Below, in pieces: positions 1 through 46,150 of a DNA stretch of 64,000 nucleotides. The notes below the pieces were generated by a model. It did not search any database, was not told the DNA's origin, and worked only from the letters and a program-made list of their open reading frames with translations. The translations under genes were made by a program, and so were the position numbers. The stretch covers positions 620,001 to 684,000 of the forward strand of contig JAWQEG010000723.1 in the NCBI GenBank assembly GCA_033782935.1. The letters run 5' to 3'. Within the stretch, counting starts at the first letter, position 1. Every line of letters begins with the position of its first letter. The DNA is from Petrolisthes cinctipes. Its lineage: Eukaryota > Arthropoda > Malacostraca > Decapoda > Porcellanidae.

Positions 1-113
1 CCTAAATATCGAATTTTCTGTTGTTTTGGGACTGAATTTGAGATATCGACTTTTTGGCACCTAAAAGATCGATTTTTAGCATGTTTTTAGCCTATATTTT
101 GAAAATATTCTAG

Positions 114-123
114 CACTGTACAG
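114..123 (+). repeat. Recurrent 10-bp deletion allele CACTGTACAG at a C-to-A junction
   Basis: The usual CACTGTGTAGGCATGTACAG is shortened by 10 bp to CACTGTACAG. The same form begins at 1,283, 22,102, 23,596, 25,590 and 26,759, and at 14,100 and 40,419 with CACTGTACAT. The pairs 114/25,590, 1,283/26,759 and 14,100/40,419 are D1/D2 counterparts. The deletion ends at repeated TGT, so slippage is plausible. It removes most of the otherwise best-conserved motif of the monomer. Confidence 0.9.
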
Positions 124-3100
124 ATTGCTTCTGGGACCCCAAAATATTGAATTTTCGGGTGTTTTGAGCCTGAATTTGAGATATAAACGGGTACAGAAGA
201 TACATGCTCATATTGACTTTGGGCACCAAAAATATCGATTTTCAGCATGTTTTGGGCCTGAATTTTGAAAATACTCTAACACGGAGTAGGCATGTACAGA
301 TCGCTTCTGGGACCCCAAAATATCGAATTTTCGGGTGTTTAGGGCCAGAATTTGAGATATAAACGGGTACAGATGATGCATGCACATATCGACTTTTGGG
401 CACCTGAGAGATCGATTTTCAGTATGTTTTTGGCCTGTATTTTGAAAATACTCTAACACGGAGTAGGCATGTACAGATACCTTCTGGGACCTCTAAATAT
501 CGAATTTTCGGGTGTTTTGGAACTGAATTTGAGATATCGATTTATTGGCACCTAAAATGTCGATTTTTAGCATGTTTTTCGCCTATATTTTGAAAATATT
601 CTAGCACTGTGTAGGCATGTACAGATTGCTTCTGGGACCCCAAAATATTGAATTTTCGGGTGTTTTGAGCCTGAATTTGAGATATAAACGGATACAGAAG
701 ATACATGCACATATTGACTTTGGGCACCAAAAATATCGATTTTCAGCATGTTTTGGGCCAAAATTTTGAAAATACTCTAACACGGAGTAGGCATGTACAG
801 ATCGCTTCTGGGACCCCAAAATATCGACTTTTCGGGTGTTTAGGGCCAGAACTTGAGTTATAAACGGGTACAGAAGATGCATGCACATATCGACTTTTGG
901 GCACCTAAAAGATCGATTTTCAGTATGTTTTGAGCATGTTTTTTGAAAATACTCTAACACTAAGTAGGCATGTACAGATACCCTCTGGGACCTCTAAATA
1001 TCGAATTTTCGGGTGTTTTGAGTCTGAATTTGAGATATAAACGGGTACTGAAGATGCATGCACATATCGACTTTTGTGCACCTAAAAGATCGATTTTCAG
1101 TATGTTTTGAGCATGTATTTTGAAAATACTCTAACACTGAGTAGGCATGTACAGATCGCTTCTGGGGCCCCTAAATATCGAATTTTCTGGTGTTTTGGGA
1201 CTGAGTTTGAGATATCGACTTTTTGGCACCTAAAAGATCGATTTTTAGCATGTTTTTAGCCTATATTTTGAAAATATTCTAGCACTGTACAGATTGCTTC
1301 TGGGACCCCAAAATATTGAATTTTCGGGTGTTTTGAGCCTGAATTTGAGATGTAAACGGGTACAGAAGATACATGCATATATTGACTTTGGGCACCAAAA
1401 ATATCGATTTTCAGCATGTTTTGGGCCTGAATTTTGAAAATACTCTAACACGGAGTAGGCATGTACAGATCGCTTCTGGGACCCCAAAATATCGAATTTT
1501 CGGGTGTTTAGGGCCAGAATTTGAGATATAAACGGGTACAGAAGATGAATGCACATATCGACTTTTGGGCACCTAAAAAATCGATTTTCAGTATGTTTTT
1601 GGCCTGTATTTTGAAAATACTCTAACACGGAGTAGGCATGTACAGATACCTTCTGGGACCTTTAAATATCGAATTTTCGGGTGTTATGGGACTGAATTTG
1701 AGATATCGATTTTTTGGCACCTAAAATGTCGATTTTTAGCATGTTTTTACCCTATATTTTGAAAATATTCTAGCACTGTGTAGGCATGTACAGATTGCTT
1801 CTGGGACCCCAAAATATTGAATTTTCGGGTGTTTTGAGCCTGAATTTGAGATATAAACGGTTACAGAAGATAGATGCACATATTGACTTTGGGCATCTAA
1901 AATATCGATTTTCAGCATGTTTTGGGCCTGTATTTTGAAAATACTCTAACACTGAGTAGGCATGTACAGATCGCTTCTGGAACCCCAAAATATCGAATTT
2001 TCGGGTGTTTAGGGCCAGAATTTGAGATATAAACGGGTCCAGAAGATGCATGCACATATCGACTTTTGGGCACCTAAATGATCGATTTTCAGTATGATTT
2101 TGGCCTGTATTTTTGAAAATACTCTAACAAGGAGTAGGCATGTACAGATACCTTCTGGGACCTCTAAATATCGAATTTTCGGGTGTTTTGGGACTGAATT
2201 TGATATATCGATTTTTTGGCACCTAAAATGTCGACTTTTAGCATGTTTTTAGCCTATATTTTGAAAATATTCTAGCACTGTGTAGGCATGTACAGATTGC
2301 TTCTGGGACCCCAAAATATTGAATTTTTCGGGAGTTTTGAGCCTGAATTTGAGATATAAACGGGTACAGAAGATACATGCACATATTGACTTTGGGCATC
2401 TAAAATATCGATTTTCAGCATGTTTTGGGCCTGTATTTTGAAAATACTCTAACACTGAGTAGGCATGTACAGATTGCTTCTGGGACCCCAAAATATTGAA
2501 TTTTCGGGTGTTTTGAGCCTGAATTTGAGATATAAACGGGTACTGAAGATGCATGCACATATCGACTTTTGTGCACCTAAAAGATCGATTTTCAGTATGT
2601 TTTGAGCATGTATTTTGAAAATACTCTAACACGGAGTAGGCATGTACAGATCGCTTCTGGGACCCCTAAATATCGAATTTTCGGGTGTTTTGGGACTGAA
2701 TTTGAGATATCGACTTTTTGGCACCTAAAAGATCGATTTTTAGCATGTTTTTAGCCTATATTTTGAAAATATTCTAGCACTGAGTAGGCATGTACAGATT
2801 GCTTCTGGGACCCCAAAATATTGAATTTTCGGGTGTTTTGAGCCTGAATTTGAGATATAAACGGGTACAGAAGATACATGCACATATTGACTTTGGGCAC
2901 CAAAAATATCGATTTTCAGCATGTTTTGGGCCTAAATTTTGAAAATACTCTAACACGGAGTAGGCATGTACAGATCGCTTCTGGGACCCCAAAATATCGA
3001 ATATTCGGGTGTTTAGGGCCAGAATTTGAGATATAAACGGGTACAGAAGATGCTTGCACATATCGACTTTTGGGCACCTAAAAGATCGATTTTCAGTATG

Positions 3101-3134
3101 TTTTTGGCCTGTATGTTGAAAATACTCTAACAAG

Positions 3135-3430
3135 GAGTAGGCATGTACAGATCGCTTCTGGGACCCCTAAATATCGAATTTTCGTGTGTGTTGGGACTGA
3201 ATTTTAGATATCGACATTTTGGCACCTAAAAGATCGATTTTTAGCATGTTTTTAGCCTATATTTTGAAAATACTCTAACACGGAGTAGGCATGTACAGAT
3301 CGCTTCTGGGACCCCTAAATATCGAATTTTCGTGTGTGTTGGGACTGAATTTGAGATATCGACATTTTGGCACCTAAAAGATCGATTTTTAGCATGTTTT
3401 TAGCCTATATTTTGAAAATATTCTAGCACT
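3135..3430 (+). repeat. C-C monomer doublet (2 x 148 bp)
   Basis: Two short monomers stand directly in tandem, 3,135-3,282 and 3,283-3,430; both carry TTTTCGTGTGTGTTGGG. The first ends TACTCTAACACG, which is the A/B-type end, while the second ends TATTCTAGCACT, the normal C end. The first is therefore a chimera with a C body and an A/B tail, as expected from an exchange in the TTGAAAATA motif. The same doublet occurs in D2 at 28,611-28,906, so it predates the long duplication. Confidence 0.85.
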
Positions 3431-6400
3431 GAGTAGGCATGTACAGATTGCTTCTGGGACCCCAAAATATTGAATTTTCGGGTGTTTTGAGCCTGAATTT
3501 GAGATATAAACGGGTACAGAAGATACATGCACATATTGACTTTGGGCACCAAAAATATCGATTTTCAGCATGTTTTGGGCCTGAAATTTGAAAATTCTCT
3601 AACACGGGGTAGGCATGTACAGATCGCTTCTGGGACCCCAAAATATCGAATTTTCGGGTGTTTAGGGCCAGAATTTGAGATATAAACGGGTACAGAAGAT
3701 GCATGCACATATCGACTTTTGGGCACCTAAAAGATCGATTTTCAGTATGTTTTGAGCATGTATTTTGAAAATACTCTAACACGGAGTAGGCATGTACAGA
3801 TCGCTTCTGGGACCCCTAAATATCGAATTTTCGGGTGTTTTGGGACTGAATTTGAGATATCGACTTTTTGGCACCTAAAAGATCGACTTTTAGCATGTTT
3901 TTAGCCTATATTTTGAAAATATTCTAGCACTGAGTAGGCATGTACAGATTGCTTCTGGGACCCCAAAATATTGAATTTTTGGGTGTTTTGAGCCTGAATT
4001 TGAGATATAAACGGGTACTGAAGATGCATGCACATATCGACTTTTGTGCACCTAAAAGATCGATTTTCAGTATGTTTTGAGCATGTATTTTGAAAATACT
4101 CTAACACGGAGTAGGCATGTACAGATTGCTTCTGGGACCCCTAAATATCGAATTTTCGGGTGTTTTGGGACTGAATTTGAGATATCGACTTTTTGGCACC
4201 TAAAAGATCGATTTTTAGCATTTTTTTAGCCTATATTTTGAAAATATTCTAGCACTGAGTAGGCATGTACATATTGCTTCTGGGACCCCAAAATATTGAA
4301 TTTTCGGGTGTTTTGAGCCTGAATTTGAGATATAAACGGGTACAGAAGATACATGCACATATTGACTTTGGGCACCAAAAATATCGATTTCCAGCATGTT
4401 TTGGGCCTGAATTTTGAAAATACTCTAACACGGAGTAGGCATGTACAGATCGCTTCTGGGACCCCAAAATATCGAATTTTCCGGTGTTTAGGGCCAGAAT
4501 TTGAGATATAAACGGGTACAGAAGATGCATGCACATATCGACTTTTGGGCACCTAAATGATCGATTTTCAGTATGATTTTGGCCTGTATTTTGAAAATAC
4601 TCTAACAAGGAGTAGGCATGTACAGATACCTTCTGGGACCTCTAAATATCGAATTTTCGGGTGTTTTGGGACTGAATTTGAGATATCGATTTTTTGGCAC
4701 CTAAAATTTCGATTTTTAGCATGTTTTTAGCCTATATTTTGAAAATATTCTAGCACTGTGTAGGCATGTACAGATTGCTTCTGGGACCCCGAAATATTGA
4801 ATTTTCGGGTGTTTTGAGCCTGAATTTGAGATATAAACGGGTACAGAAGATACATGCACATATTGACTTAGGGCATCTAAAATATCGATTTTCAGCATGT
4901 TTTGGGCCTGTATTTTGAAAATACTCTAACACTGAGTAGGCATGTACAGATTGCTTCTGGGACCCCAAAATATTTAATTTTCGGGTGTTTTGAGCCTGAA
5001 TTTGAGATATAAACGGGTACTGAAGATGCATGCACATATCGACTTTTGTGCACCTAAAAGATCGATTTTCAGTATGTTTTGAGCATGTATTTTGAAAATA
5101 CTCTAACACGGAGTAGGCATGTACAGATCGCTTCTGGGACCCCTAAATATCGAATTTTCGGGTGTTTTGGGACTGAATTTGAGATATCGACTTTTTGGCA
5201 CCTAAAAGATCGATTTTTAGCATGTTTTTAGCCTATATTTTGAAAATATTCTAGCACTGAGTAGGCATGTACAGATTGCTTCTGGGACCCCAAAATATTG
5301 AATTTTCGGGTGTTTTGAGCCTGAATTTGAGATATAAACGGGTACAGAAGATACATGCACATATTGACTTTGGGCATCAAAAATATCGATTTTCAGCATG
5401 TTTTGGGCCTGAATTTTGAAAATACTCTAACACGGAGTAGGCATGTACAGATTGCTTCTGGGACCCCAAAATATCGAATATTCGGGTGTTTAGGGCCAGA
5501 ATTTGAGATATAAACGGGTACAGAAGATGCTTGCACATATCGACTTTTGGGCACCTAAAAGATCGATTTTCAGTATGTTTTTGGCCTGTATGTTGAAAAT
5601 ACTCTAACAAGGAGTAGGCATGTACAGATACCTTCTGGGACCTCTAAATATCGAATTTTCGGGTGTTTTGAGACTGAATTTGAGATATCGATTTATTGGC
5701 ACCTAAAATGTCGATTTTTAGCATGTTTTTAGCCTATATTTTGAAAATATTCTAACACTGTGTAGGCATGTACAGATTGCTTCTGGGACCCCAAAATATT
5801 GAATTTTCGGGTGTTTTGAGCCTGAATTTGAGATATAAACGGGTACAGAAGATACATGCACATATTGACTTTGGGCATCTAAAAGATCGATTTTCAGTAT
5901 GTTTTGAGCATGTATTTTGAAAATCCTCTAACACGGAGTAGGCATGTACAGATCGCTTCTGGGACCCCTAAATATCGAATTTTCGTGTGTGTTGGGACTG
6001 AATTTGAGATATCGACATTTTGGCACCTAAAAGATCGATTTTTAGCATGTTTTTAGCCTATATTTTGAAAATATTCTAGCACTGAGTAGGCATGTACAGA
6101 TTGCTTCTGGGACCCCAAAATATTGAATTTTCGGGTGTTTTGAGCCTGAATTTGAGATATAAACGGGTACAGAAGATACATGCACATATTGACTTTGGGC
6201 ACCAAAAATATCGATTTTCAGCATGTTTTGTGCCTGAATCTTGAAAATTCTCTAACGCAGAGTAGGCATGTACAGATCGCTTCTGGGACCCCAAAAAATC
6301 GAATTTTCGGGTGTTTAGGGCCAGAATTTGAGATATAAACGGGTACAGAAGATGCATGCACATATCGACTTTTGGGCACCTAAAAGATCGATTTTCAGTA

Positions 6401-6584
6401 TGTTTTGAGCATGTATTTTGAAAATACTCTAACACGGAGTAGGCATGTACAGATCGCTTCTGGGACCCCTAAATATCGAATTTTCGGGTGTTTTGGGACT
6501 GAATTTGAGATATCGACTTTTTGGCACCTAAAAGATCGACTTTTAGCATGTTTTTAGCCTATATTTTGAAAATATTCTAGCACT

Positions 6585-6909
6585 GAGTAGGCATGTACAG
6601 ATTGCTTCTGGGACCCCAAAATATTGAATTTTCGGGTGTTTTGAGCCTGAATTTGAGATATAAACGGGTACTGAAGATGCATGCACATATCGACTTTTGT
6701 GCACCTAAAAGATCGATTTTCAGTATGTTTTGAGCATGTATTTTGAAAATACTCTAACACGGAGTAGGCATGTACAGATCGCTTCTTGGACCCCTAAATA
6801 TCGAATTTTCGGGTGTTTTGGGACTGAATTTGAGATATCGACTTTTTGGCACCTAAAAGATCGATTTTTAGCATGTTTTTAGCCTATATTTTGAAAATAT
6901 TCTAGCACT
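6585..6909 (+). repeat. B2-C2 dimer (325 bp) present in D1, absent in D2
   Basis: A B2 monomer (6,585-6,761) directly follows a C2 monomer without an A between, and is followed by another C2 (6,762-6,909). In D2 the corresponding site near 32,060 runs from C2 straight into A1 and the offset drops by 325 bp. The break lies in a long stretch that is identical at both edges, so it cannot be placed to the base. Whether D2 lost it or D1 gained it is not decidable here. Confidence 0.82.
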
Positions 6910-8377
6910 GAGTAGGCATGTACAGATTGCTTCTGGGACCCCAAAATATTGAATTTTCGGGTGTTTTGAGCCTGAATTTGAGATATAAACGGGTACAGAA
7001 GATACATGCACATATTGACTTTGGGCACCAAAAATATCGATTTTCAGCATGTTTTGGGCCTGAATTTTGAAAATACTCTAACACGGAGTAGGCATGTACA
7101 GATCGCTTCTGGGACCCCAAAATATCGAATTTTCGGGTGTTTAGGGCCAGAATTTGAGATATAAACGGGTACAGAAGATGCATGCACATATCGACTTTTG
7201 GGCACCTAAAAGATCGATTTTCAGTATGTTTTTGGCCTGTATTTTGAAAATACTCTAACAAGGAGAAGGCATGTACAGATACCTTCTGGGACCTCTAAAT
7301 ATCGAATTTTCGGGTGTTTTGGGATGAATTTGAGATATCGATTTTTTGGCACCTAAAATGTCGATTTTTAGCATGTTTTTAGCCTATATTTTGAAAATAT
7401 TCTAGCACTGTGTAGGCATGTACAGATTGCTTCTGGGACCCCAAAATATTGAATTTTCGGGTGTTTTGAGCCTGAATTTGAGATATAAACGGGTACAGAA
7501 GATACATGCACATATTGACTTTGGGCATCTAAAATATCGATTTTCAGCATGTTTTCGGCCTGTATTTTGAAAATACTCTAACACTGAGTAGGCATGTACA
7601 GATTGCGTCTGGGACCCCAAAATATTGAATTTTTGGATGTTTTGAGCCTGAATTTGTGATATATACGGGTACTGAAGATGCATGCACATATCGACTTTTG
7701 TGCACCTAAAAGATCGATTTTCAGTATGTTTTGAGCATGTATTTTGAAAATACTCTAACACGGAGTAGGCATGTACAGATACCTTCTGGAACCTCTAAAT
7801 ATCGAATTTTCGGGTGTTTTGGGACTGAATTTGTGATATCGATTTTTTGGCACCTAAAATGTCGATTTTTAGCATGTTTTTAGCCTATATTTTGAAAATA
7901 TTCTAGCACTGTGTAGGCATGTACAGATTGCTTCTGGGACCCCAAAATATTGAATTTTCGGGTGTTTTGAGCCTGAATTTGAGATATAAACGGGTAAAGA
8001 AGATACATGCACATATTGACTTTGGGCATCTAAAATATCGATTTTCAGCATGTTTTGGGCCTGTATTTTGAAAATACTCTAACACTGAGTAGGCATGTAC
8101 AGATTGCTTCTGGGACCCCAAAATATTGAATTTTCGGGTGTTTTGAGCCTGAATTTGAGATATAAACGGGTACTGAAGATGCATGCACATATCGACTTTT
8201 GTGCATCTAAAAGATCGATTTTCAGTATGTTTTGAGCATGTATTTTGAAAATACTCTAACACGGAGTAGGCATGTACAGATCGCTTCTGGGACCCCTAAA
8301 TATCGAATTTTCGGGTGTTTTAGGACTGAATTTGAGATATCGACTTTTTGGCACCTAAAAGATCGATTTTTAGCATG

Positions 8378-8385
8378 TTTTTTTT
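8378..8385 (+). repeat. T8 tract insertion shared by D1 and D2
   Basis: The usual GCATGTTTTTAGCC has five T; here there are eight. The same T8 is at 33,529-33,536 in D2. It is a useful marker for the common ancestry of the two segments at offset 25,151. Confidence 0.93.
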
Positions 8386-8767
8386 AGCCTATATTTTGAA
8401 AATATTCTAGCACTGAGTAGGCATGTAAAGATTGCTTCTGGGACCCCAAAATATTGAATTTTCGGGTGTTTTGAGCCTGAATTTGAGATATAAACGGGTA
8501 CAGAAGATACATGCACATATTGACTTTGGGCACCAAAAATATCGATTTTCAGCATGTTTTGGGCCTGAATTTTGAAAATACTCTAACACGGAGTAGGTAT
8601 GTACAGATCGCTTCTGGGACCCCAAAATATCGAATTTTCGGGTGTTTAGGGCCAGAATTTGAGATATAAACGGGTACAGAAGATGCATGCACATATCGAC
8701 TTTTGGGCACCTAAAAGATCGATTTTCAGTATGTTTTTGGCCTGTATTTTGAAAATACTCTAACAAG

Positions 8768-8943
8768 GAGAAGGCATGTACAGATACCTTCTGTGACCTC
8801 TAAATATCGAATTTTCGGGTGTTTTGGGATGAATTTGAGATATAAACGGGTACAGAAGATGCATGCACATATCAACTTTTGGGCACCTAAAAGATCGATT
8901 TTCAGTATGTTTTTGGCCTGTATGTTGAAAATACTCTAACAAG
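8768..8943 (+). repeat. C1/B1 hybrid monomer marking a 991-bp length difference
   Basis: This monomer starts as C (GATACCTTCTGTGACCTCT, TTTTGGGATGAATTTGAG) and continues as B (ATATAAACGGGTACAGAAG, CATATCAACTTTTGGG). In D2 the same CTTCTGTGACCTCT start at about 33,940 continues as an ordinary C, and the CATATCAAC-bearing B lies about 1 kb further on near 35,015. D1 therefore appears to have lost about 991 bp by exchange within the shared GAATTTGAGATAT motif, and D2 keeps the older arrangement. Confidence 0.82.
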
Positions 8944-9592
8944 GAGTAGGCATGTACAGATACCTTCTGGGACCTCTAAATATCGAATTTTTGGGTGTTT
9001 TGTGACTGAATTTGAGATATCGATTTTTTGGCACTTAAAATGTCGATTTTTAGCATGTTTTTAGCCTATATTTTGAAAATATTCTAGCACTGTGTAGGCA
9101 TGTACAGATTGCTTCTGGGACCCCAAAATATTGAATTTTCGGGTGTTTTGAGCCTGAATTTGAGATATAAACGGGTAAAGAAGATACATGCACATATTGA
9201 CTTTGGGCATCTAAAATATCGATTTTCAGCATGTTTTGGGCCTGTATTTTGAAAATACTCTAACACTGAGTAGGCATGTACAGATTGCTTCTGGGACCCC
9301 AAAATATTGAATTTTCGGGTGTTTTGAGCCTGAATTTGAGATATAAACGGGTACTGAAGATGCATGCACATATCGACTTTTGTGCACCTAAAAGATCGAT
9401 TTTCAGTATGTTTTGAGCATGTATTTTGAAAATACTCTAACACGGAGTAGGCATGTACAGATCGCTTCTGGTACCCCTAAATATCGAATTTTCAGGTGTT
9501 TTGGGACTGAATTTGAGATATCGACTTTTTGGCACCTAAAAGATCGATTTTTAGCATGTTTTTAGCCTATATTTTGAAAATATTCTAGCACT

Positions 9593-9768
9593 GAGTAGGC
9601 ATGTACAGATTGCTTCTGGGACCCCAAAATATTGAATTTTCGGGTGTTTTGAGCCTGAATTTGAGATATAAACGGGTACAGAAGATACATGCACATATTG
9701 ACTTTGGGCACCAAAAATATCGATTTTCAGCATGTTTTGAACCTGAATTTTGAAAATACTCTAACACG
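9593..9768 (+). repeat. Monomer type A1 (176 bp), reference copy
   Basis: First monomer of trimer 1. Diagnostic features are ATATTGAATTTTCGG with TTTTGAGCCTG in the first half, GATACATGCACATATTGAC in the middle, GGGCACCAAAAATATCG, and a CTGAATTTTGAAAATAC end. It is one base shorter than type B because the TTTGGGCACC tract has one T fewer. It normally follows a C monomer and precedes B1. Confidence 0.9.
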
Positions 9769-9945
9769 AAGTAGGCATGTACAGATCGCTTCTGGGACCC
9801 CAAAATATCGAATTTTCGGGTGTTTAGGGCCAGAATTTGAGATATAAACGGGTACAGAAGATGCATGCACATATCAACTTTTGGGCACCTAAAAGATCGA
9901 TTTTCAGTATGTTTTTGGCCTGTATGTTGAAAATACTCTAACAAG
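9769..9945 (+). repeat. Monomer type B1 (177 bp), reference copy
   Basis: Second monomer of trimer 1. Diagnostic features are ATATCGAATTTTCGG with TTTAGGGCCAG in the first half, GATGCATGCACATAT, CTTTTGGGCACCTAAAAGATCG, and a GCCTGTATGTTGAAAATAC end followed by TAACAAG. The generic type B sequence has 30 C, 42 G and 6 CpG in 177 bp by hand count, so CpG is close to random expectation. Its length is a multiple of three, so reading frames pass through it without shifting. Confidence 0.9.
9775..9862 (+). repeat. Protomer h1 (88 bp), first half-unit of monomer B1
   Basis: From GCATGTACAGATCGCTTCTGGG to just before the matching GCATGCAC of the second half. Landmarks in order are GCATGTACAGAT, TTCTGGGACC, AAATATCGAATTTT, GGGCCAGAATTTGAGATATA. 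The second half repeats them as GCATGCACATAT, TTTTGGGCACC, AAAAGATCGATTTT, GGCCTGTATGTTGAAAATA in the same order and spacing. The two CGA(A)TTTT cores of the monomer lie 89 bp apart and the next core follows after 88 bp, so the monomer is a nearly even dimer. Confidence 0.75.
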
Positions 9946-9951
9946 GAGTAG
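9863..9951 (+). repeat. Protomer h2 (89 bp), second half-unit of monomer B1
   Basis: The diverged partner of the preceding 88 bp half-unit; it runs to just before the GCATGTAC of the next monomer. It contains the 8-bp palindrome TGCATGCA and the ClaI-type ATCGAT motif in AAAGATCGATTTT. In C monomers this half-unit is cut by 29 bp, which reduces the core spacing from 89 to 60 bp. Confidence 0.72.
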
Positions 9952-10093
9952 GCATGTACAGATACCTTCTGGGACCTCTAAATATTGAATTTTCGGGTGT
10001 TTTGGGACTGAATTTGAGATATCGATTTTTTGGCACTTAAAATGTCGATTTTTAGCATGTTTTTAGCCTATATTTTGAAAATATTCTAGCACT
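9946..10093 (+). repeat. Monomer type C1 (148 bp, short type), reference copy
   Basis: Third monomer of trimer 1. It begins GATACCTTCTGGGACCTCT, carries TTTTGGGACTG in the first half, and runs from GAATTTGAGATAT directly into CGATTTTTTGGCACC. The 29 bp that in type B hold AAACGGGTACAGAAG and TGCATGCACATAT are missing. It ends GCCTATATTTTGAAAATATTCTAGCACT. The missing block in B is bounded by ATAT on both sides, which fits a deletion between short direct repeats. Confidence 0.9.
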
Positions 10094-10269
10094 GTTTAGG
10101 CATGTACAGATTGCTTCTGGGACCCCAAAATATTGAATTTTCGGGTGTTTTGAGCCTGAATTTGAGATATAAACGGGTAAAGAAGATACATGCACATATT
10201 GACTTTGGGCATCTAAAATATCGATTTTCAGCATGTTTTGGGCCTGTATTTTGAAAACACTCTAACACT
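10094..10269 (+). repeat. Monomer type A2 (176 bp), reference copy
   Basis: First monomer of trimer 2. It resembles A1 but has GGGCATCTAAAATATCG instead of the CACCAAAAATATCG of A1, and ends CTGTATTTTGAAAA then TAACACT. Many A2 copies, this one included, also carry AAACGGGTAAAGAAG. The copy here has GTTTAGGCAT in place of GTGTAGGCAT at its start. Confidence 0.88.
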
Positions 10270-10446
10270 GAGTAGGCATGTACAGATTGCTTCTGGGACC
10301 CCAAAATATTGAATTTTCGGGTGTTTTGAGCCTGAATTTGAGATATAAACGGGTACTGAAGATGTATGCACATATCGACTTTTGTGCACCTAAAAGATCG
10401 ATTTTCAGTATGTTTTGAGCATGTATTTTGAAAATACTCTAACACG
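10270..10446 (+). repeat. Monomer type B2 (177 bp), chimeric A-like/B-like
   Basis: Second monomer of trimer 2. Its first half carries the A signature (CAGATTGCTTC, ATATTGAATTTTCGG, TTTTGAGCCTG). Its second half carries the B signature (GATGTATGCACATATCGAC here, ATGCATGCAC in most copies; CTTTTGTGCACCTAAAAGATCG; CAGTATGTTTTGAGCATG). The switch falls near the AAACGGGTACTGAAG block. This mixed make-up suggests an exchange between an A and a B monomer fixed when the second trimer arose. It is found at regular positions throughout the array. Confidence 0.85.
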
Positions 10447-10594
10447 GAGTAGGCATGTACAGATCGCTTCTGGGACCCCTAAATATCGAATTTTCGGGTG
10501 TTTTGGGACTGAATTTGAGATATCGACTTTTTGGCACCTAAAATATCGATTTTTAGCATGTTTTTAGCCTATATTTTGAAAATATTCTAGCACT
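10447..10594 (+). repeat. Monomer type C2 (148 bp), reference copy
   Basis: Third monomer of trimer 2. It has the same 29 bp absence as C1 but begins GATCGCTTCTGGGACCCCTAAATAT and has CGACTTTTTGGCACCTAAAA in the second half where C1 usually has CGATTTTTTGGCACCTAAAATG. The next A1 copy starts at 10,595 with an unusual GAGTGCCTATGTACAG instead of GAGTAGGCATGTACAG. Confidence 0.88.
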
Positions 10595-12598
10595 GAGTGC
10601 CTATGTACAGATTGCTTCTGGGACCCCAAAATATTGAATTTTCGGGTGTTTTGAGCCTGAATTTGAGATATAAACGGGTACAGAAGATACATGCACATAT
10701 TGACTTTGGGCACCAAAAATATCGATTTTCAGCATGTTTTGGGGCTGAATTTTGAAAATACTCTAACACGGAGTAGGCATGTACAGATCGCTTCTGGGAC
10801 CCCAAAATATCGAATTTTCGGGTGTTTAGGGCCAGAATTTGAGATATAAACGGGTACAAAAGATGCATGCACATATCGACTTTTGGGCACCTAAAAAATC
10901 GTTTTTCAGTATGTTTTTGGCCTGTATGTTGAAAATACTCTAACAAGAGGTAGGCATGTACAGATACCTTCTGGGACCTCTAAATATCGAATTTTCGGGT
11001 GTTTTGGGACTGAATTTGAGATATCGATTATTTGGCACCTAAAATGTCGATTTTTAGCATGTTTTTAGCCTATATTTTGAAAATATTCTAGCACTGTGTA
11101 GGCATGTACAGATTGCTTCTGGGACCCCAAAATATTGAATTTTCGGGTGTTTTGAGCCTGAATTTGAGATATAAACGGGTACAGAAGATACATGCACATG
11201 TTGACTTTGGGCACCAAAAATATCGATTTTCAGCATGTTTTGGGCCTGAATTTTGAAAATACTCTAACACGGAGTAGGCATGTACAAATCGCTTCTGGGA
11301 CCCCAAAATATCGAATTTTCGGGTGTTTAGGGCCAGAATTTGAGATATAAACGGGTACAGAAGATGCATGCACATATCGACTTTTGGGTACCTAAAAGAT
11401 CGATTTTCAGTATGTTTTTGGCCTGTATGTTGAAAATACTCTAACAAGGAGTAGGCATGTACAGATACCTTCTGGGACCCCTAAATATCGAATTTTCGGG
11501 TGTTTTGGGACTGAATTTGAGATATCGATTTTTTGGCACCTAAAATGTCGATTTTTAGCATGTTTTTAGCCTATATTTTGAAAATATTCTAGCACTGTGT
11601 AGGCATGTACAGATTGCTTCTGGGACCCCAAAATATTGAATTTTCGGGTGTTTTGAGCCTGAATTTGAGATATAAACGGGTAAAGAAGATACATGCACAT
11701 ATTGACTTTGGGCATCTAAAATATCGATTTTCAGCATGTTTTGGGCCTGTATTTTGAAAATACTCTAACACTGAGTAGGCATGTACAGATTGCTTCTGGG
11801 ACCCCAAAATATTGAATTTTCGGGTGTTTTGAGCCTGAATTTGAGATATAAACGGGTACTGAAGATGCATGCACATATCGACTTTTGTGCACCTAAAAGA
11901 TCGATTTTCAGTATGTTTTGAGCATGTATTTTGAAAATACTCTAACACGGAGTAGGCATGTACAGATCGCTTCTGGGACCCCTAAATATCGAATTTTCGG
12001 GTGTTTTGGGACTGAATTTGAGATATCGACTTTTTGGCACCTAAAAGATCGATTTTTAGCATGTTTTTAGCCTATATTTTGAAAATATTCTAGCACTGAG
12101 TAGGCATGTACAGATTGCTTCTGGGACCCCAAAATATTGAATTTTCGGGTGTTTTGAGCCTGAATTTGAGATATAAACGGGTACAGAAGATACATGCACA
12201 TATTGACTTTGGGCACCAAAAATATCGATTTTCAGCATGTTTTGGGCCTGAATTTTGAAAATACTCTAACACGGAGTAGGCATGTACAGATCGCTTCTGG
12301 GACCCCAAAATATCGAATTTTCGGGTGTTTAGGGCCAGAATTTGAGATTTAAACGGGTACAGAAGATGCATGCACATATCGACTTTTGGGCACCTAAAAG
12401 ATCGATTTTCAGTATGTTTTTGGCCTGTATTTTGAAAATACTCTAACAAGGAGTAGGCATGTACAGATACCTTCTGGGACCTCTAAATATCGAATTTTCG
12501 GGTGTTTTGGGACTGAATTTGAGATATCGATTTTTTGGCACCTAAAATGTCGATTTTTAGCATGTTTTTAGCCTATATTTTGAAAATATTCTAGCACT

Positions 12599-13099
12599 GT
12601 GTAGGCATGTACAGATTGCTTCTGGGACCCCAAAATATTGAATTTTCGGGTGTTTTGAGCCTGAATTTGAGATATAAACGGGTACAGAAGATACATGCAC
12701 ATATTGACTTTGGGCACCAAAAATATCGATTTTCAGCATGTTCTGGGCCTGAATTTTGAAAATACTCTAACACGGAGTAGGCATGTACAGATCGCTTCTG
12801 GGACCCCAAAATATCGAATTTTCGGGTGTTTAGGGCCAGAATTTGAGCTATAAACGGGTACAGAAGATGCATGCATATATCGACTTTTGGGTACCTAAAA
12901 GATCGATTTTCAGTATGTTTTTAGCCTGTATGTTGAAAATACTCTAACAAGGAGTAGGCATGTACAGATACCTTCTGAGACCTCTAAATATCGAATTTTC
13001 GGGTGTTTTGGGACTGAATTTGAGATATCGATTTTTTGGCACCTAAAATGTCGATTTTTAGCATGTTTTTAGCCTATATTTTGAAAATATTCTAGCACT
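12599..13099 (+). repeat. 501-bp trimer present in D1 only
   Basis: The A1-B1-C1 trimer at this site follows another A1-B1-C1 trimer and is missing at the matching place in D2, where the offset falls by exactly 501 bp (from 26,820 to 26,319). It carries private bases such as GTTCTGGGCC and ATTTGAGCTATAAACGGG. The change is a clean in-register gain or loss. Confidence 0.82.
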
Positions 13100-19000: not shown

Positions 19001-19150
19001 GATATAAACGGGTACAGAAGATGCATGCACATATCGACTTTTGGGTACCTAAAAGATCGATTTTCAGTATGTTTTTGGCCTGTATGTTGAAAATACTCTA
19101 ACTAGGAGTAGGCATGTACAGATACCTTCTGGGACCTCTAAATATCGAAT

Positions 19151-31400: not shown

Positions 31401-34400
31401 CCTCTAACACGGAGTAGGCATGTACAGATCGCTTCTGGGACCCCTAAATATCGAATTTTCGTGTGTGTTGGGACTGAATTTGAGATATCGACATTTTGGC
31501 ACCTAAAAGATCGATTTTTAGCATGTTTTTAGCCTATATTTTGAAAATATTCTAGCACTGAGTAGGCATGTACAGATTGCTTCTGGGACCCCAAAATATT
31601 GAATTTTCGGGTGTTTTGAGCCTGAATTTGAGATATAAACGGGTACAGAAGATACATGCACATATTGACTTTGGGCACCAAAAATATCGATTTTCAGCAT
31701 GTTTTGTGCCTGAATCTTGAAAATTCTCTAACGCGGAGTAGGCATGTACAGATCGCTTCTGGGACCCCAAAAAATCGAATTTTCGGGTGTTTAGGGCCAG
31801 AATTTGAGATATAAACGGGTACAGAAGATGCATGCACATATCGACTTTTGGGCACCTAAAAGATCGATTTTCAGTATGTTTTGAGCATGTATTTTGAAAA
31901 TACTCTAACACGGAGTAGGCATGTCCAGATCGCTTCTGGGACCCCTAAATATCGAATTTTCGGGTGTTTTGGGACTGAATTTGAGATATCTACTTTTTGG
32001 CACCTAAAAGATCGACTTTTAGCATGTTTTTAGCCTATATTTTGAAAATATTCTAGCACTGAGTAGGCATGTACAGATTGCTTCTGGGACCCCAAAATAT
32101 TGAATTTTCGGGTGTTTTGAGCCTGAATTTGAGATATAAACGGGTACAGAAGATACATGCACATATTGACTTTGGGCACCAAAAATATCGATTTTCAGCA
32201 TGTTTTGGGCCTGAATTTTGAAAATACTCTAACACGGAGTAGGCATGTACAGATCGCTTCTGGGACCCCAAAATATCGAATTTTCGGGTGTTTAGGGCCA
32301 GAATTTGAGATATAAACGGGTACAGAAGATGCATGCACATATCGACTTTTGGGCACCTAAAAGATCGATTTTCAGTATGTTTTTGGCCTGTATTTTGAAA
32401 ATACTCTAACAAGGAGAAGGCATGTACAGATACCTTCTGGGACCTCTAAATATCGAATTTTCGGGTGTTTTGGGATGAATTTGAGATATCGATTTTTTGG
32501 CACCTAAAATGTCGATTTTTAGCATGTTTTTAGCCTATATTTTGAAAATATTCTAGCACTGTGTAGGCATGTACAGATTGCTTCTGGGACCCCAAAATAT
32601 TGAATTTTCGGGTGTTTTGAGCCTGAATTTGAGATATAAACGGGTACAGAAGATACATGCACATATTGACTTTGGGCATCTAAAATATCGATTTTCAGCA
32701 TGTTTTCGGCCTGTATTTTGAAAATACTCTAACACTGAGTAGGCATGTACAGATTGCGTCTGGGACCCCAAAATATTGAATTTTTGGATGTTTTGAGCCT
32801 GAATTTGTGATATATACGGGTACTGAAGATGCATGCACATATCGACTTTTGTGCACCTAAAAGATCGATTTTCAGTATGTTTTGAGCATGTATTTTGAAA
32901 ATACTCTAACACGGAGTAGGCATGTACAGATACCTTCTGGAACCTCTAAATATCGAATTTTCGGGTGTTTTGGGACTGAATTTGTGATATCGATTTTTTG
33001 GCACCTAAAATGTCGATTTTTAGCATGTTTTTAGCCTATATTTTGAAAATATTCTAGCACTGTGTAGGCATGTACAGATTGCTTCTGGGACCCCAAAATA
33101 TTGAATTTTCGGGTGTTTTGAGCCTGAATTTGAGATATAAACGGGTAAAGAAGATACATGCACATATTGACTTTGGGCATCTAAAATATCGATTTTCAGC
33201 ATGTTTTGGGCCTGTATTTTGAAAATACTCTAACACTGAGTAGGCATGTACAGATTGCTTCTGGGACCCCAAAATATTGAATTTTCGGGTGTTTTGAGCC
33301 TGAATTTGAGATATAAACGGGTACTGAAGATGCATGCACATATCGACTTTTGTGCATCTAAAAGATCGATTTTCAGTATGTTTTGAGCATGTATTTTGAA
33401 AATACTCTAACACGGAGTAGGCATGTACAGATCGCTTCTGGGACCCCTAAATATCGAATTTTCGGGTGTTTTAGGACTGAATTTGAGATATCGACTTTTT
33501 GGCACCTAAAAGATCGATTTTTAGCATGTTTTTTTTAGCCTATATTTTGAAAATATTCTAGCACTGAGTAGGCATGTAAAGATTGCTTCTGGGACCCCAA
33601 AATATTGAATTTTCGGGTGTTTTGAGCATGAATTTGAGATATAAACGGGTACAGAAGATACATGCACATATTGACTTTGGGCACCAAAAATATCGATTTT
33701 CAGCATGTTTTGGGCCTGAATTTTGAAAATACTCTAACACGGAGTAGGTATGTACAGATCGCTTCTGGGACCCCAAAATATCGAATTTTCGGGTGTTTAG
33801 GGCCAGAATTTGAGATATAAACGGGTACAGAAGATGCATGCACATATCGACTTTTGGGCACCTAAAAGATCGATTTTCAGTATGTTTTTGGCCTGTATTT
33901 TGAAAATACTCTAACAAGGAGAAGGCATGTACAGATACCTTCTGTGACCTCTAAATATCGAATTTTCGGGTGTTTTGGGATGAATTTGAGATATCGATTT
34001 TTTGGCACCTAAAATGTCGATTTTTAGCATGTTTTTAGCCTATATTTTGAAAATATTCTAGCACTGTGTAGGCATGTACAGATTGCTTCTGGGACCCCAA
34101 AATATTGAATTTTCGGGTGTTTTGAGCCTGAATTCGAGATATAAACGGGTACAGAAGATACATGCACATATAGACTTTGGGCATCTAAAATATCGATTTT
34201 CAGCATGTTTTCGGCCTGTATTTTGAAAATACTCTAACACTGAGTAGGCATGTACAGATTGCGTCTGGGACCCCAAAATATTGAATTTTTGGGTGTTTTG
34301 AGCCTGAATTTGAGATATAAACGGGTACTGAAGATGCAAGCACATATCGACTTTTGTGCACCTAAAAGATCGATTTTCAGTATGTTTTGAGCATGTATTT

Positions 34401-34744
34401 TGAAAATACTCTAACACGGAGTAGGCATTTACAGATCGCTTCTGGGACCCCTAAATATCGAATTTTCGGGTGTTTGGGGACTGAATTTGAGATATCGACT
34501 TTTTGGCACCTAAAAGATCGATTTTTAGCATGTTTTTAGCCTATATTCTGAAAATATTCTAGCACCGAGTAGGCATGTACAGATTGCTTCTGGGACCCCA
34601 AAATATTGAATTTTCGGGTGTTTTGAGCCTGAATTTGAGATATAAACGGGTACAGAAGATACATGCACATATTGACTTTGGGCACCAAAAATATCGATTT
34701 TCAGCATGTTTTGGGCCTGAATTTTGAAAATACTCTAACACGGA

Positions 34745-34752
34745 GTAGATCG
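34745..34752 (+). repeat. 10-bp deletion junction at a monomer start
   Basis: The sequence reads GGAGTAGATCGCTTC where neighbouring monomers read GGAGTAGGCATGTACAGATCG, so GCATGTACAG is missing. AG stands at the end of the preceding GTAG and of the deleted block, consistent with a slip between very short repeats. The B-type monomer that follows is itself a chimera that takes on A1 features (GATACATGCACATATTGAC, CACCAAAAATATCG) in its second half. Confidence 0.85.
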
Positions 34753-36235
34753 CTTCTGGGACCCCAAAATATCGAATTTTCGGGTGTTTAGGGCCAGAAT
34801 TTGAGATATAAACGGGTACAGAAGATACATGCACATATTGACTTTGGGCACCAAAAATATCGATTTTCAGCATGTTTTGGGCCTGAATTTTGAAAATACT
34901 CTAACACGGAGTAGGCATGTACAGATCGATTCTGGGACCCCAAAATATCGAATTTTCGGGTGTTTAGGGCCAGAATTTGAGATATAAACGGGTACAGAAG
35001 ATGCATGCACATATCAACTTTTGGGCACCTAAAAGATCGATTTTCAGTATGTTTTTGGCCTGTATGTTGAAAATACTCTAACAAGGAGTAGGCATGTACA
35101 GATACCTTCTGGGACCTCTAAATATCGAATTTTTGGGTGTTTTGTGACTGAATTTGAGATATCGATTTTTTGGCACTTAAAATGTCGATTTTTAGCATGT
35201 TTTTAGCCTATATTTTGAAAATATTCTAGCACTGTGTAGGCATGTACAGATTGCTTCTGGGACCCCAAAATATTGAATTTTCGGGTGTTTTGAGCCTGAA
35301 TTTGAGATATAAACGGGTAAAGAAGATACATGCACATATTGACTTTGGGCATCTAAAATATCGATTTTCAGCATGTTTTGGGCCTGTATTTTGAAAATAC
35401 TCTAACACTGAGTAGGCATGTACAGATTGCTTCTGGGACCCCAAAATATTGAATTTTCGGGTGTTTTGAGCCTGAATTTGAGATATAAACGGGTACTGAA
35501 GATGCATGCACATATCGACTTTTGTGCACCTAAAAGATCGATTTTCAGTATGTTTTGAGCATGTATTTTGAAAATACTCTAACACGGAGTAGGCATGTAC
35601 AGATCGCTTCTGGTACCCCTAAAAATCGAATTTTCAGGTGTTTTGGGACTGAATTTGAGATATCGACTTTTTGGCACCTAAAAGATCGATTTTTAGCATG
35701 TTTTTAGCCTATATTTTGAAAATATTCTAGCACTGAGTAGGCATGTACAGATTGCTTCTGGGACCCCAAAATATTGAATTTTCGGGTGTTTTGAGCCTGA
35801 ATTTGAGATATAAACGGGTACAGAAGATACATGCACATATTGACTTTGGGCACCAAAAATATCGATTTTCAGCATGTTTTGAACCTGAATTTTGAAAATA
35901 CTCTAACACGAAGTAGGCATGTACAGATCGCTTCTGGGACCCCAAAATATCGAATTTTCGGGTGTTTAGGGCCAGAATTTGAGATATAAACGGGTACAGA
36001 AGATGCATGCACATATCAACTTTTGGGCACCTAAAAGATCGATTTTCAGTATGTTTTTGGCCTGTATGTTGAAAATACTCTAACAAGGAGTAGGCATGTA
36101 CAGATACCTTCTGGGACCTCTAAATATTGAATTTTCGGGTGTTTTGGGACTGAATTTGAGATATCGATTTTTTGGCACTTAAAATGTCGATTTTTAGCAT
36201 GTTTTTAGCCTATATTTTGAAAATATTCTAGCACT

Positions 36236-36913: not shown

Positions 36914-38416
36914 GTGTAGGCATGTACAGATTGCTTCTGGGACCCCAAAATATTGAATTTTCGGGTGTTTTGAGCCTGAATTTGAGATATAAACGGGTAC
37001 AGAAGATACATGCACATGTTGACTTTGGGCACCAAAAATATCGATTTTCAGCATGTTTTGGGCCTGAATTTTGAAAATACTCTAACACGGAGTAGGCATG
37101 TACAAATCGCTTCTGGGACCCCAAAATATCGAATTTTCGGGTGTTTAGGGCCAGAATTTGAGATATAAACGGGTACAGAAGATGCATGCACATATCGACT
37201 TTTGGGTACCTAAAAGATCGATTTTCAGTATGTTTTTGGCCTGTATGTTGAAAATACTCTAACAAGGAGTAGGCATGTACAGATACCTTCTGGGACCCCT
37301 AAATATCGAATTTTCGGGTGTTTTGGGACTGAATTTGAGATATCGATTTTTTGGCACCTAAAATGTCGATTTTTAGCATGTTTTTAGCCTATATTTTGAA
37401 AATATTCTAGCACTGTGTAGGCATGTACAGATTGCTTCTGGGACCCCAAAATATTGAATTTTCGGGTGTTTTGAGCCTGAATTTGAGATATAAACGGGTA
37501 CAGAAGATACATGCACATGTTGACTTTGGGCACCAAAAATATCGATTTTCAGCATGTTTTGGGCCTGAATTTTGAAAATACTCTAACACGGAGTAGGCAT
37601 GTACAAATCGCTTCTGGGACCCCAAAATATCGAATTTTCGGGTGTTTAGGGCCAGAATTTGAGATATAAACGGGTACAGAAGATGCATGCACATATCGAC
37701 TTTTGGGTACCTAAAAGATCGATTTTCAGTATGTTTTTGGCCTGTATGTTGAAAATACTCTAACAAGGAGTAGGCATGTACAGATACCTTCTGGGACCCC
37801 TAAATATCGAATTTTCGGGTGTTTTGGGACTGAATTTGAGATATCGATTATTTGGCACCTAAAATGTCGATTTTTAGCATGTTTTTAGCCTATATTTTGA
37901 AAATATTCTAGCACTGTGTAGGCATGTACAGATTGCTTCTGGGACCCCAAAATATTGAATTTTCGGGTGTTTTGAGCCTGAATTTGAGATATAAACAGGT
38001 ACAGAAGATACATGCACATGTTGACTTTGGGCACCAAAAATATCGATTTTCAGCATGTTTTGGGCCTGAATTTTGAAAATACTCTAACACGGAGTAGGCA
38101 TGTACAAATCGCTTCTGGGACCCCAAAATATCGAATTTTCGGGTGTTTAGGGCCAGAATTTGAGATATAAACGGGTACAGAAGATGCATGCACATATCGA
38201 CTTTTGGGTACCTAAAAGATCGATTTTCAGTATGTTTTTGGCCTGTATGTTGAAAATACTCTAACAAGGAGTAGGCATGTACAGATACCTTCTGGGACCC
38301 CTAAATATCGAATTTTCGGGTGTTTTGGGACTGAATTTGAGATATCGATTTTTTGGCACCTAAAATGTCGATTTTTAGCATGTTTTTAGCCTATATTTTG
38401 AAAATATTCTAGCACT
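36914..38416 (+). repeat. Local triplication of one 501-bp trimer in D2
   Basis: Three nearly identical A1-B1-C trimers at 36,914-37,414, 37,415-37,915 and 37,916-38,416 share CACATGTTGACTTTGG, GTACAAATCGC and GGGTACCTAAAAG. D1 has one such trimer, at 11,096-11,596. The C monomers record the exchanges. D1 C monomers carry either CTCT with CGATTATTTGG (upstream) or CCCT with CGATTTTTTGG (downstream). In D2 the C starting near 37,267 is CCCT plus ATTTTTT, that near 37,768 is CCCT plus ATTATTT (a hybrid), and that near 38,269 is CCCT plus ATTTTTT. Confidence 0.88.
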
Positions 38417-41400: not shown

Positions 41401-44400
41401 AATACTCTAACACTGAGTAGGCATGTACAGATTGCTTCTGGGACCCCAAAATATTGAATTTTCGGGTGTTTTGAGCCTGAATTTGAGATATAAACGGGTA
41501 CTGAAGATGCATGCACATATCGACTTTTGTGCACCTAAAAGATCGATTTTCAGTATGTTTTGAGCATGTATTTTGAAAATACTCTAACACGGAGTAGGCA
41601 TGTACAGATCGCTTCTGGGACCCCTAAATATCGAATTTTCGGGTGTTTTGGGACTGAATTTATGATATCGACTTTTTGGCACCTAAAAGATCGATTTCTA
41701 GCATGTTTTTAGCCTATATTTTGAAAATATTCTAGCACTGAGTAGGCATGTACAGATTGCTTCTGGGACCCCAAAATATTGAATTTTCGGGTGTTTTGAG
41801 CCTGAATTTGAGATATAAACGGGTACAGAAGATACATGCACATATTGACTTTGGGCACCAAAAATATCGATTTTCAGCATGTTTTGGGACTGAATTTTGA
41901 AAATTCTCTAACACGGAGTAGACATGTACAGATCGCTTCTGGGACCCCAAAATATCGAATTTTCGGGTGTTTAGGGCCAGAATTTGAGATATAAACGGGT
42001 ACAGAAGATGCATGCACATATCGACTTTTGGGCACCTAAAAGATCGATTTTCAGTATGTTTTGAGCATGTATTTTGAAAATACTCTAACACGGAGTAGGC
42101 ATGTTCAGATCGCTTCTGGGACCCCTAAATATCGAATTTTCGGGTGTTTTGGGACTGAATTTGAGATATCGACTTTTTTGCACCTAAAATATCGACTTTT
42201 AGCATGTTTTTAGCCTATATTTTGAAAATATTCTAGCACTGAGTAGGCATGTACAGATTGCTTCTGGGACCCCAAAATATTAAATTTTCGGGTGTTTTGA
42301 GCCTGAATTTGAGATATAAACGGGTACTGAAAATGCATGCACATATCGACTTTTGTGCACCTAAAAGATCGATTTTCAGTAAGTTTTGAGCATGTATTTT
42401 GAAAATACTCTAACACGGAGTAGGCATGTACAGATCGCTTCTGGGACCCCAAAATATCGAATTTTCGGGTGTTTAGGGCCAGAATTTGAGATATAAACGG
42501 GTACAGAAGATGCATGCACATATCGACTTTTGGGCACCTAAAAGATCGATTTTCAGTATGTTTTTGGCCTGTATGTTGAAAATACTTTAACAAGGAGTAG
42601 GCATGTACAGATACCTTCTGGGACCTCTAAATATCGAATTTTCGGGTGTTTTGGGACTGAATTTGAGATATCGATTTTTTGGCACCTAAAATGTCGATTT
42701 TTAGCATGTTTTTAGCCTATATTTTGAAAATATTCTAGCACTGTGTAGGCATGTACAGATTGCTTCTGGGACCCCAAAATATTGAATTTTCGGGTGTTTT
42801 GAGCCAGAATTTGAGATATAAACGGGTACAGAAGATACATGCACATATTGACTTTGGGCATCTAAAATATCGATTATCAGCATGTTTTGGGCCTGTATTT
42901 TGAAAATACTCTAACACTGAGTAGGCATGTACAGATTGCTTCTGGGACCCCAAAATATTGAATTTTCGGGTGTTTTGAGCCTGAATTTGAGATATAAACG
43001 GGTACTGAAGATGCATGCACATATCGACTTTTGTGCACCTAAAAGATCGATTTTCAGTATGTTTTGAGCATGTATTTTGAAAATACTCTAACACGGAGTA
43101 GGCATGTACAGATCGCTTCTGGGACCCCTAAATATCGAATTTTCGGGTGTTTTGGGACTGAATTTGAGATATCGACATTTTGATACCTAAAAGATCGATT
43201 TTTAGCATGTTTTTAGCCAATATTTTGAAAATATTCTAGCACTGAGTAGGCATGTACATATTGCTTCTGTGACCCCAAAATATTGAATTTTCGGGTGTTT
43301 TGAGCCTGAATTTGAGATATAAACGGGTACAGAAGATACATGCACATATTGACTTTGGGCACCAAAAATATCGATTTTCAGCATGTTTTGGGCCTGAATT
43401 TTAAAAATACTCTAACACGGAGTAGGCATGTACAGATCGCTTCTGGGACCCCAAAATATCGAATTTTCGGGTGTTTAGGGCCAGAATTTGAGATATAAAC
43501 GGGTACAGAAGATGCATGCACATATCGACTTTTGGGTACCTAAAAGATCGATTTTCAGTATGTTTTTGGCCTGTATGTTGAAAATACTCTAACAAGGAGT
43601 AGGCATGTACAGATACCTTCTGGGACCTCTAAATATCGAATTTTCGGGTGTTTTGGGACTGAATTTGAGATATCGATTTTTTGGCACCTAAAATGTCGAT
43701 TTTTAGCATGTTTTTAGCCTATAATTTGAAAATATTCTAGCACTGTGTAGGCATGTACAGATTGCTTCTGGGACCCCAAAATATTGAATTTTCGGGTGTT
43801 TTGAGCCTGAATTTGAGATATAAACGGGTAAAGAAGATACATGCACATATTGACTTTGGGCATCTAAAATATCGATTTTCAGCATGTTTTGGGCCTGTAT
43901 TTTGAAAATACTCTAACACTGAGTAGGCATGTACAGATTGCTTCTGGGACCCCAAAATATTGAATTTTCGGGTGTTTTGAGCCTGAATTTGAGATATAAA
44001 CGGGTACTGAAGATGCATGCACATATCGACTTTTGTGCACCTAAAAGATCGATTTTCAGTATGTTTTTGAGCATGTATTTTGAAAATACTCTAACACGGA
44101 GTAGGCATGTACAGATCGCTTCTGGGACCCCTAAATATCGAATTTTCGGGTGTTTTGGGACTGAATTTGAGATATCGACTTTTTGGCACCTAAAAGATCG
44201 ATTTTTAGCATGTTTTTAGCCTATATTTTGAAAATATTCTAGCACTGAGTAGGCATGTACAGATTGCTTCTGGGACCCCAAAATATTGAATTTTCGGGTG
44301 TTTTGAGCCTGAATTTGAGATATAAACGGGTACATAAGATACATGCACATATTGACTTTGGGCACCAAAAATATCGATTTTCAGCATGTTTTGGGCCTGA

Positions 44401-46150
44401 ATTTTGAAAATACTCTAACACGGAGTAGGCATGTACAGATTGCTTCTGGGACCCCAAAATATTGAATTTTCGGGTGTTTTGAGCCTGAATTTGAGATATA
44501 AACGGGTACTGAAGATGCATGCACATATCGACTTTTGTGCACCTAAATGATCGATTTTCAGTATGTTTTGAGCATGTATTTTGAAAATACTCTAACACGG
44601 AGTATGCATGTACAGATCGCTTCTGGGACCCCTAAATATCGAATTTTCGGGTGTTTTGGGACTGAATTTGAGATATCGACATTTTGATACCTAAAAGATC
44701 GATTTTTAGCATGTTTTTAGCCAATATTTTGAAAATATTCTAGCACTGAGTAGGCATGTACATATTGCTTCTGTGACCCCAAAATATTGAATTTTCGGGT
44801 GTTTTGAGCCTGAATTTGAGATATAAACGGGTACAGAAGATACATGCACATATTGACTTTGGGCACCAAAAATATCGATTTTCAGCATGTTTTGGGCCTG
44901 AATTTTGAAAATACTCTAACACGGAGTAGGCATGTACAGATCGCTTCTGGGACCCCAAAATATCGAGTTTTCGGGTGTTTAGGGCCAGAATTTGAGATAT
45001 AAACGGGTACAGAAGATGCATGCACATATCGACTTTTGGGTACCTAAAAGATCGATTTTCAGTATGTTTTTGGCCTGTATGTTGAAAATACTCTAACAAG
45101 GAGTAGGCATGTACAGATACCTTCTGGGACCTCTAAATATCGAATTTTCGGGTGTTTTGGGACTGAATTTGAGATATCGATTTTTTGGCACCTAAAATGT
45201 CGATTTTTAGCATGTTTTTAGCCTATATTTTGAAAATATTCTAGCACTGAGTAGGCATGTACAGATTGCTTCTGGGACCCCAAAATATTGAATTTTCGGG
45301 TGTTTTGAGCCTGAATTTGAGATATAAACGGGTACAGAAGATACATGCACATATTGACTTTGGGCACCAAAAATATCGATTTTCAGCATGTTTTGGGCCT
45401 GAATTTTGAAAATACTCTAACACGGAGTAGGCATGTACAGATCGCTTCTGGGACCCCAAAATATCGAATTTTCGGGTGTTTAGGGCCAGAATTTGAGATA
45501 TAAACGGGTACAGAAGATGCATGCACATATCGACTTTTGGGCACCTAAAAGATCGATTTTCAGTATGTTTTTGGCCTGTATGTTGAAAATACTCTAACAA
45601 GGAGTAGGCATGTACAGATACCTTCTGGGACCTCTAAATATCGAATTTTCGGGTGTTTTGGGACTGAATTTGAGATATCGATTTTTTGGCACCTAAAATG
45701 TCGATTTTTAGCATGTTTTTAGCCTATATTTTGAAAATATTCTAGCACTGTGTAGGCATGTACAGATTGCTTCTGGGACCCCAAAATATTGAATTTTCGG
45801 GTGTTTTGAGCCTGAATTTGAGATATAAACGGGTACAGAAGATACATGCACATATTGACTTTGGGCACCAAAAATATCGATTTTCAGCATGTTTTGGGCC
45901 TGAATTTTGAAAATACTCTAACACGGAGTAGGCATGTACAGATCGCTTCTGGGACCAAAAAATATCGAATTTTCGGGTGTTTAGGGCCAGAATTTGAGAT
46001 ATAAACGGGTACAGAAGATGCATGCACATATCGACTTTTGGGTACCTAAAAGATCGATTTTCAGTATGTTTTTGGCCTGTATGTTGAAAATACTCTAACT
46101 AGGAGTAGGCATGTACAGATACCTTCTGGGACCTCTAAATATCGAATTTT

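Follow-up and report, generated by a model that had tools for sequence, protein, structure and literature searches.

Abutting copies of a block of at least 25.3 kb in a satellite array of Petrolisthes cinctipes, and the repeat-sized length changes that distinguish them

The DNA investigated in this study, referred to as the window, is a stretch of 64,000 nucleotides from the decapod Petrolisthes cinctipes, which covers positions 620,001-684,000 of the 1.63-Mb contig C722 (JAWQEG010000723.1) in an assembly of 1.48 Gb consisting of 9,385 contigs (GCA_033782935.1). All 64 kb belong to a single satellite array on the + strand, in which 384 anchors delimit 383 head-to-tail monomers, predominantly of 177 bp (133), 148 bp (116) and 176 bp (112), with 22 of other lengths. 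The 148-bp monomer corresponds to the 177-bp form minus 29 bp. The recurring order 177-176-148 constitutes the commonest higher-order repeat of 501 bp, and one long and one short monomer together account for 325 bp. The surrounding region of the contig (540,001-804,000) has 84-100% of its 15-mers per 4-kb bin in common with the window, and the 40 scored places resembling it, among 250 candidates, are spread over nine contigs. The features relevant for the following discussion are listed below in window coordinates.

1-64,000, + strand: satellite array, 383 complete monomers with lengths of mainly 177, 176 and 148 bp
1-19,225, + strand: D1, the part within the window; its true start is at contig position 613,926, which precedes the window by 6,074 bases
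19,226-19,314, + strand: hybrid junction between D1 and D2, whose 89 bp match both parental edges exactly
19,226-46,222, + strand: D2, tandem copy; its right edge lies between 46,222 and 46,311 owing to the junction homology
55,407-64,000, + strand: D3 start, left copy of a second tandem pair
56,127-64,000, + strand: tandem gain with a period of 5,309 bp inside D3, whose second copy leaves the window

The array also contains several local peculiarities. A 23-bp unit is repeated 2.5 times with zero mismatches within a monomer of the odd length of 171 bp (20,181-20,238), and seven monomers of 138 bp (at 1,152; 13,969; 21,971; 23,465; 25,459; 26,628 and 40,288) are all confined to the first 41 kb, with none in the last 23 kb. 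CENP-B-like boxes show no excess, with two one-mismatch matches to the core against 6.1 expected. A literature search with six monomer words on both strands returned zero papers matching the satellite, searches by length returned nothing attributable to it, and exact satellite patterns had 0 matches in viral contigs and prokaryote genomes.

The relationship between D1 and D2 is reflected in the distribution of rare words. In the window, 3,801 of 4,588 48-mers that are present exactly twice fall inside one offset band of 2 kb, compared to at most 1,321 in any such band after shuffling the order of repeat units 100 times. K-mers of this kind define nine collinear blocks with offsets of 25,476, 25,151, 26,142, 25,818, 26,820, 26,319, 25,994, 26,496 and 26,997, and their matches stop at 19,150 and 46,147, close to the limits of 19,150 and 46,150 originally proposed. 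For 16 out of 19 pieces of D1 of 1 kb each, the best match (once a tied one) is found at the partner position in D2, and the three exceptions (starting at 6,001, 10,001 and 16,001) each cross a length change. The eight length changes that had been predicted are recovered in size and order (-325, +991, -324, +1002, -501, -325, +502 and +501), and optimisation of their breakpoints places four of the extra segments in D1 and four in D2. The list was incomplete, as a ninth change of 176 bp emerged once the flanks were included. Substitutions are as scarce as had been described, with 20 in 17,675 aligned bases (0.113%) inside the window and 25 in 23,825 bases (0.105%), next to the nine length changes, in the full alignment with flanks. 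The assertion that structural turnover has outpaced point mutation consequently depends on the unit of counting: it is correct for bases (4,647 against 25) and incorrect for events (9 against 25). Among the 20 substitutions in the window, ten look derived in D2 and three in D1, a polarity that is weak since in the larger region both alleles are present elsewhere for 14 of the 25. Transitions and transversions amount to 9:16 in this pair and 13:21 in the pair D3/D4, a spectrum that is not special to the duplications since singleton variants across the entire window are likewise rich in transversions (70 transitions, 89 transversions).

The edges of the two copies reveal how they are joined. Position 1 of the window does match position 25,477, as noted in the original prediction, but this pair of positions is merely the image of the left window edge and not the start of a copy. 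The identity between the edges continues beyond the last rare k-mer to 19,314, and the sequence at contig positions 639,226-639,314 matches the right edge of D2 up to 639,314 and the left edge of D1 from 639,226 onwards. Since the end of D1 thus equals both parental edges, the two copies abut and the switch from one to the other lies within 89 identical base pairs, with a single base nearby (639,367) unlike either parent. What had appeared as a spacer between 19.2 and 25.5 kb is the beginning of D2, and it conceals the 176-bp change. The duplicated block comprises at least 25.3 kb, with its copies arranged head to tail; by arithmetic, the length of the unit would be 28,472 bp if every long form were ancestral and 26,969 bp if the 1,002-bp segment and a contested 501-bp segment were gains. 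Outside of the exact stretch of 89 bp, the parental edges have little in common, with an ungapped identity of 78% in the 2 kb surrounding the switch. Direct abutting copies connected by a hybrid junction, of 89 bp in this case and 249 bp in the second pair, are the features expected for tandem duplication by unequal homologous exchange, and the joined ends lack the long near-identical overlap that would characterize a falsely duplicated assembly. The flanks therefore support the amplification that had been proposed, in a block whose size greatly exceeds the 501-bp repeat.

The adjoining pair D3/D4 displays the same organization on a larger scale. D3 extends from 675,407 to 745,263 of the contig and its right copy D4 from 745,015 to 803,422, the two abutting with an offset of 69,608 at the left edge and a switch within 249 bp. 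Their alignment contains 34 substitutions in 56,255 bases (0.060%, compared to the 0.105% of D1/D2, P = 0.045), and this duplication is the younger of the two. Its gaps include 12 of unit scale and one of a single base; in both pairs together, about 80 kb of alignment required no other gap of this kind. The gap of 5,634 bp is composed of the 5,309-bp tandem gain and a separate 325-bp change, and we thus count 13 events. The gain shows one mismatch in 5,456 bp and is missing in D4, from which it appears to postdate the 69.6-kb duplication. A further gap of 5,987 bp in D3 contains a fresh tandem duplication of 1,646 bp and was assigned neither to gains nor to losses.

A related array on contig C651 provides an outgroup. 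It carries the left flank of D1 followed by the duplicated unit, from which it differs by 62 mismatches in 10,863 bases (0.57%), a value based on ten blocks picked for their collinearity. In the 10 kb read after the unit, no restart of the unit is found as a run, and the right flank of D2 is matched over a single stretch of 163 bp, which is compatible with other places as well. Part of the unit on C651 recurs at the corresponding place with a period of 7,655 bp (C651:614,490-628,134). This array may belong to the homologue, to a homoeologue or to another chromosome.

The nine length changes between D1 and D2 are listed in the following, each with its mismatches to the neighbouring sequence.

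6,541-6,865, + strand: 325 bp, only in D1, placement ambiguous over 131 bp, loss-like, 4/325 mismatches
10,425-10,748, + strand: 324 bp, only in D1, present in C651 and thus probably lost in D2, 136/324 mismatches
12,478-12,978, + strand: 501 bp, only in D1, short form in C651, 8/501 mismatches
16,077-16,401, + strand: 325 bp, only in D1, loss-like, 50/325 mismatches
20,719-20,894, + strand: 176 bp, only in D2, the D1 site lying left of the window, 16/176 mismatches
33,982-34,972, + strand: 991 bp, only in D2, 529/991 mismatches
36,996-37,997, + strand: 1,002 bp, only in D2, near-identical 501-bp units, 14/1002 mismatches
43,921-44,422, + strand: 502 bp, only in D2, loss-like by the tandem-copy test, 20/502 mismatches
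45,042-45,542, + strand: 501 bp, only in D2, loss-like, 3/501 mismatches, P = 0.016

The assignment of these changes relies on C651 and on a tandem-copy test, which exploits that a recent tandem gain is necessarily accompanied, in the longer allele, by an almost identical copy next to it. The changes of 176 and 991 bp appear to be losses in D1, since C651 carries the long form in both cases, in the latter except for a difference of 10 bp. Conversely, the short form of C651 agrees with the fresh 501-bp units in pointing to the 1,002-bp change as a probable gain in D2. The 501-bp segment of D1 is contested, as it bears six alleles that are unique in the window, yet is absent from C651, so that gain and loss would both fit. 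Both 325-bp events and the 501-bp event of D2 are loss-like by the tandem-copy test, with C651 providing no decision, and for the latter the assignment is marginal. At the 502-bp site a loss is weakly indicated: a third copy at 59.4-61.9 kb of the window is collinear with the long form of D2, whereas the short form fits better in outgroup scans, at positions whose correspondence to this site is uncertain. The nine events thus comprise three losses supported by the outgroup, four suggested by the tandem-copy test only (two of them weakly), one probable gain and one contested case.

We consider it highly probable that a misaligned homologous exchange has duplicated the block head to tail and that substitutions and length changes of repeat size have accumulated thereafter. 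Sister chromatids or homologues would have paired out of register, or a broken end would have re-copied sequence located behind itself, and a switch inside the 89-bp identical stretch would have generated a duplication of about 27-28.5 kb, whose copies subsequently acquired the 25 substitutions and nine length changes. The same process would account for the younger adjoining duplication of 69.6 kb, with the 5.3-kb tandem gain inside. As to the kind of exchange, unequal homologous exchange and break-induced re-copying fit the data equally, and the losses of units would be consistent with deletion between similar repeats. Two segments, of 501 bp in D1 and of 502 bp in D2, count against this explanation, as neither fits a simple loss in the outgroup scans.

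An assembly that has strung two haplotypes of one locus into a single contig would turn D1 and D2 into alleles, and two alleles of an array could also differ by 0.1% substitutions and unit-sized length changes. We regard this as very unlikely, as the sequence common to the parental edges would hardly allow accurate reads to be overlapped in error, the related array C651 resides on a separate contig and contains the unit without its restart in the next 10 kb, small indels are nearly absent, and the neighbouring pair shows a different divergence. Similarly, the length changes could have been introduced during copying of the block by a fork that switched its template, instead of gradually thereafter, and break-induced replication with template switching could leave unit-sized gaps at once (PMC8997354). 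Since only one copy can be new, gaps in both copies speak against such an origin, and segments of C651 are absent from either one (176 and 991 bp in D1, 324 bp in D2). Both duplications moreover contain about one unit-scale length change per 2.7 substitutions (9/25 in D1/D2 and 13/34 in D3/D4), as predicted for gradual change, and we thus assign a low probability to their formation during copying.

More serious is the proposal that the small changes reflect balanced neutral unequal exchange, with the excess of losses being an artefact of the test and insertions originating from non-adjacent units. In both pairs, 18 of the 22 unit-scale changes are loss-like (two weakly), two are gain-like and two belong to neither class, which corresponds to P = 0.0004 for 18 against 2 and to P = 0.004 if the remaining two are counted as gains. 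A conservative tally, which sets aside the 502- and 501-bp events of D2, retains 16 loss-like events (P = 0.001 of 18 and 0.05 of 22), and the events decided by the outgroup alone comprise seven losses and two gains (P = 0.18), a result compatible with balance. For numerous extra segments, nearly identical sequences exist at other places in the array, in which case a non-adjacent unit may have been inserted, and when both forms were compared to third copies, for 19 of the 22 events by omitting those inside or above gaps of 3 kb, the short form fits somewhat better in eight, including the 1,002-, 502- and 501-bp events of D1/D2. Conversely, all six planted gains were detected by the adjacent near-perfect copy they leave, while only one of the 22 real events, the one of 5,309 bp, shows such a copy; fresh small tandem gains are found elsewhere in the region, such as 501 bp at 565,738 and 677 bp at 609,605. 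Likewise, a close third copy (<5 per kb) of the short form is found in none of the 19 events scanned, whereas four events of D3/D4 (325, 325, 501 and 325 bp) have one of the long form and can thus be considered losses. Balanced exchange therefore retains an appreciable, though minor, share of the probability, and the excess of losses, which is based mainly on the tandem-copy test, is suggestive. The description of the copies as edited after duplication holds, with later changes that mostly resemble losses of whole units next to at least two likely gains. An initial version, in which all length changes were deletions, was dropped as the 5,309-bp gain and C651 reveal gains and a contested case. 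A preference of losses for long identical tracts, which looked positive in the window alone, is not claimed: it was found in D1/D2 (P = 0.002, 7/9 events testable) but not in D3/D4 (P = 0.97, 11/12 testable) or upon pooling (P = 0.14).

Returning to duplication by misaligned exchange followed by gradual change, a broader reading can be formulated, which we advance tentatively and consider rather doubtful as a whole. Gains would proceed as rare tandem blocks (5.3, 25.3 and 69.6 kb, besides some 501-bp amplification) and losses as frequent deletions, each removing a single unit or a small number of them, the size of the array resulting from many small losses balanced against few large gains, and the similar rate of length changes per substitution would allow nested duplications to serve as a structural clock. 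Two datable block duplications with junctions defined at the level of bases, together with an unduplicated relative in this assembly, permit gains and losses to be counted against substitutions, which bears on the old question of how the size and uniformity of satellite arrays are maintained. If the asymmetry were general, a neutral process of unequal exchange, in which gains equal losses, would be an insufficient explanation.

Block duplication in satellite arrays is already known. Within the DXZ1 array of humans, blocks of hundreds of kilobases have been duplicated (PMC9859433), which, as in our case, far exceed the repeat and reside within one array, although they are larger and the satellite is unrelated; the passages considered describe no junctions. 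Another parallel is a de novo tandem duplication of 56 kb on chromosome 9, a single event of tens of kilobases that encompasses many higher-order repeats and is interrupted by a small unit-scale change (PMC12746033). This event was observed directly in a pedigree, in a different satellite and species, and germline events were more often insertions in the same account, which runs against a general excess of losses in the germline. For a new variant of an alpha-satellite higher-order repeat, about 100 insertions and deletions have been inferred (PMC11062924). Finally, models of unequal exchange and of break-induced replication both expect adjacent copies joined in the register of the repeat, as found here (PMC8997354). 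The former has no bias towards either gain or loss, and the latter is said to yield duplications preferentially, whereas the unit-scale changes described in this study lean towards losses.
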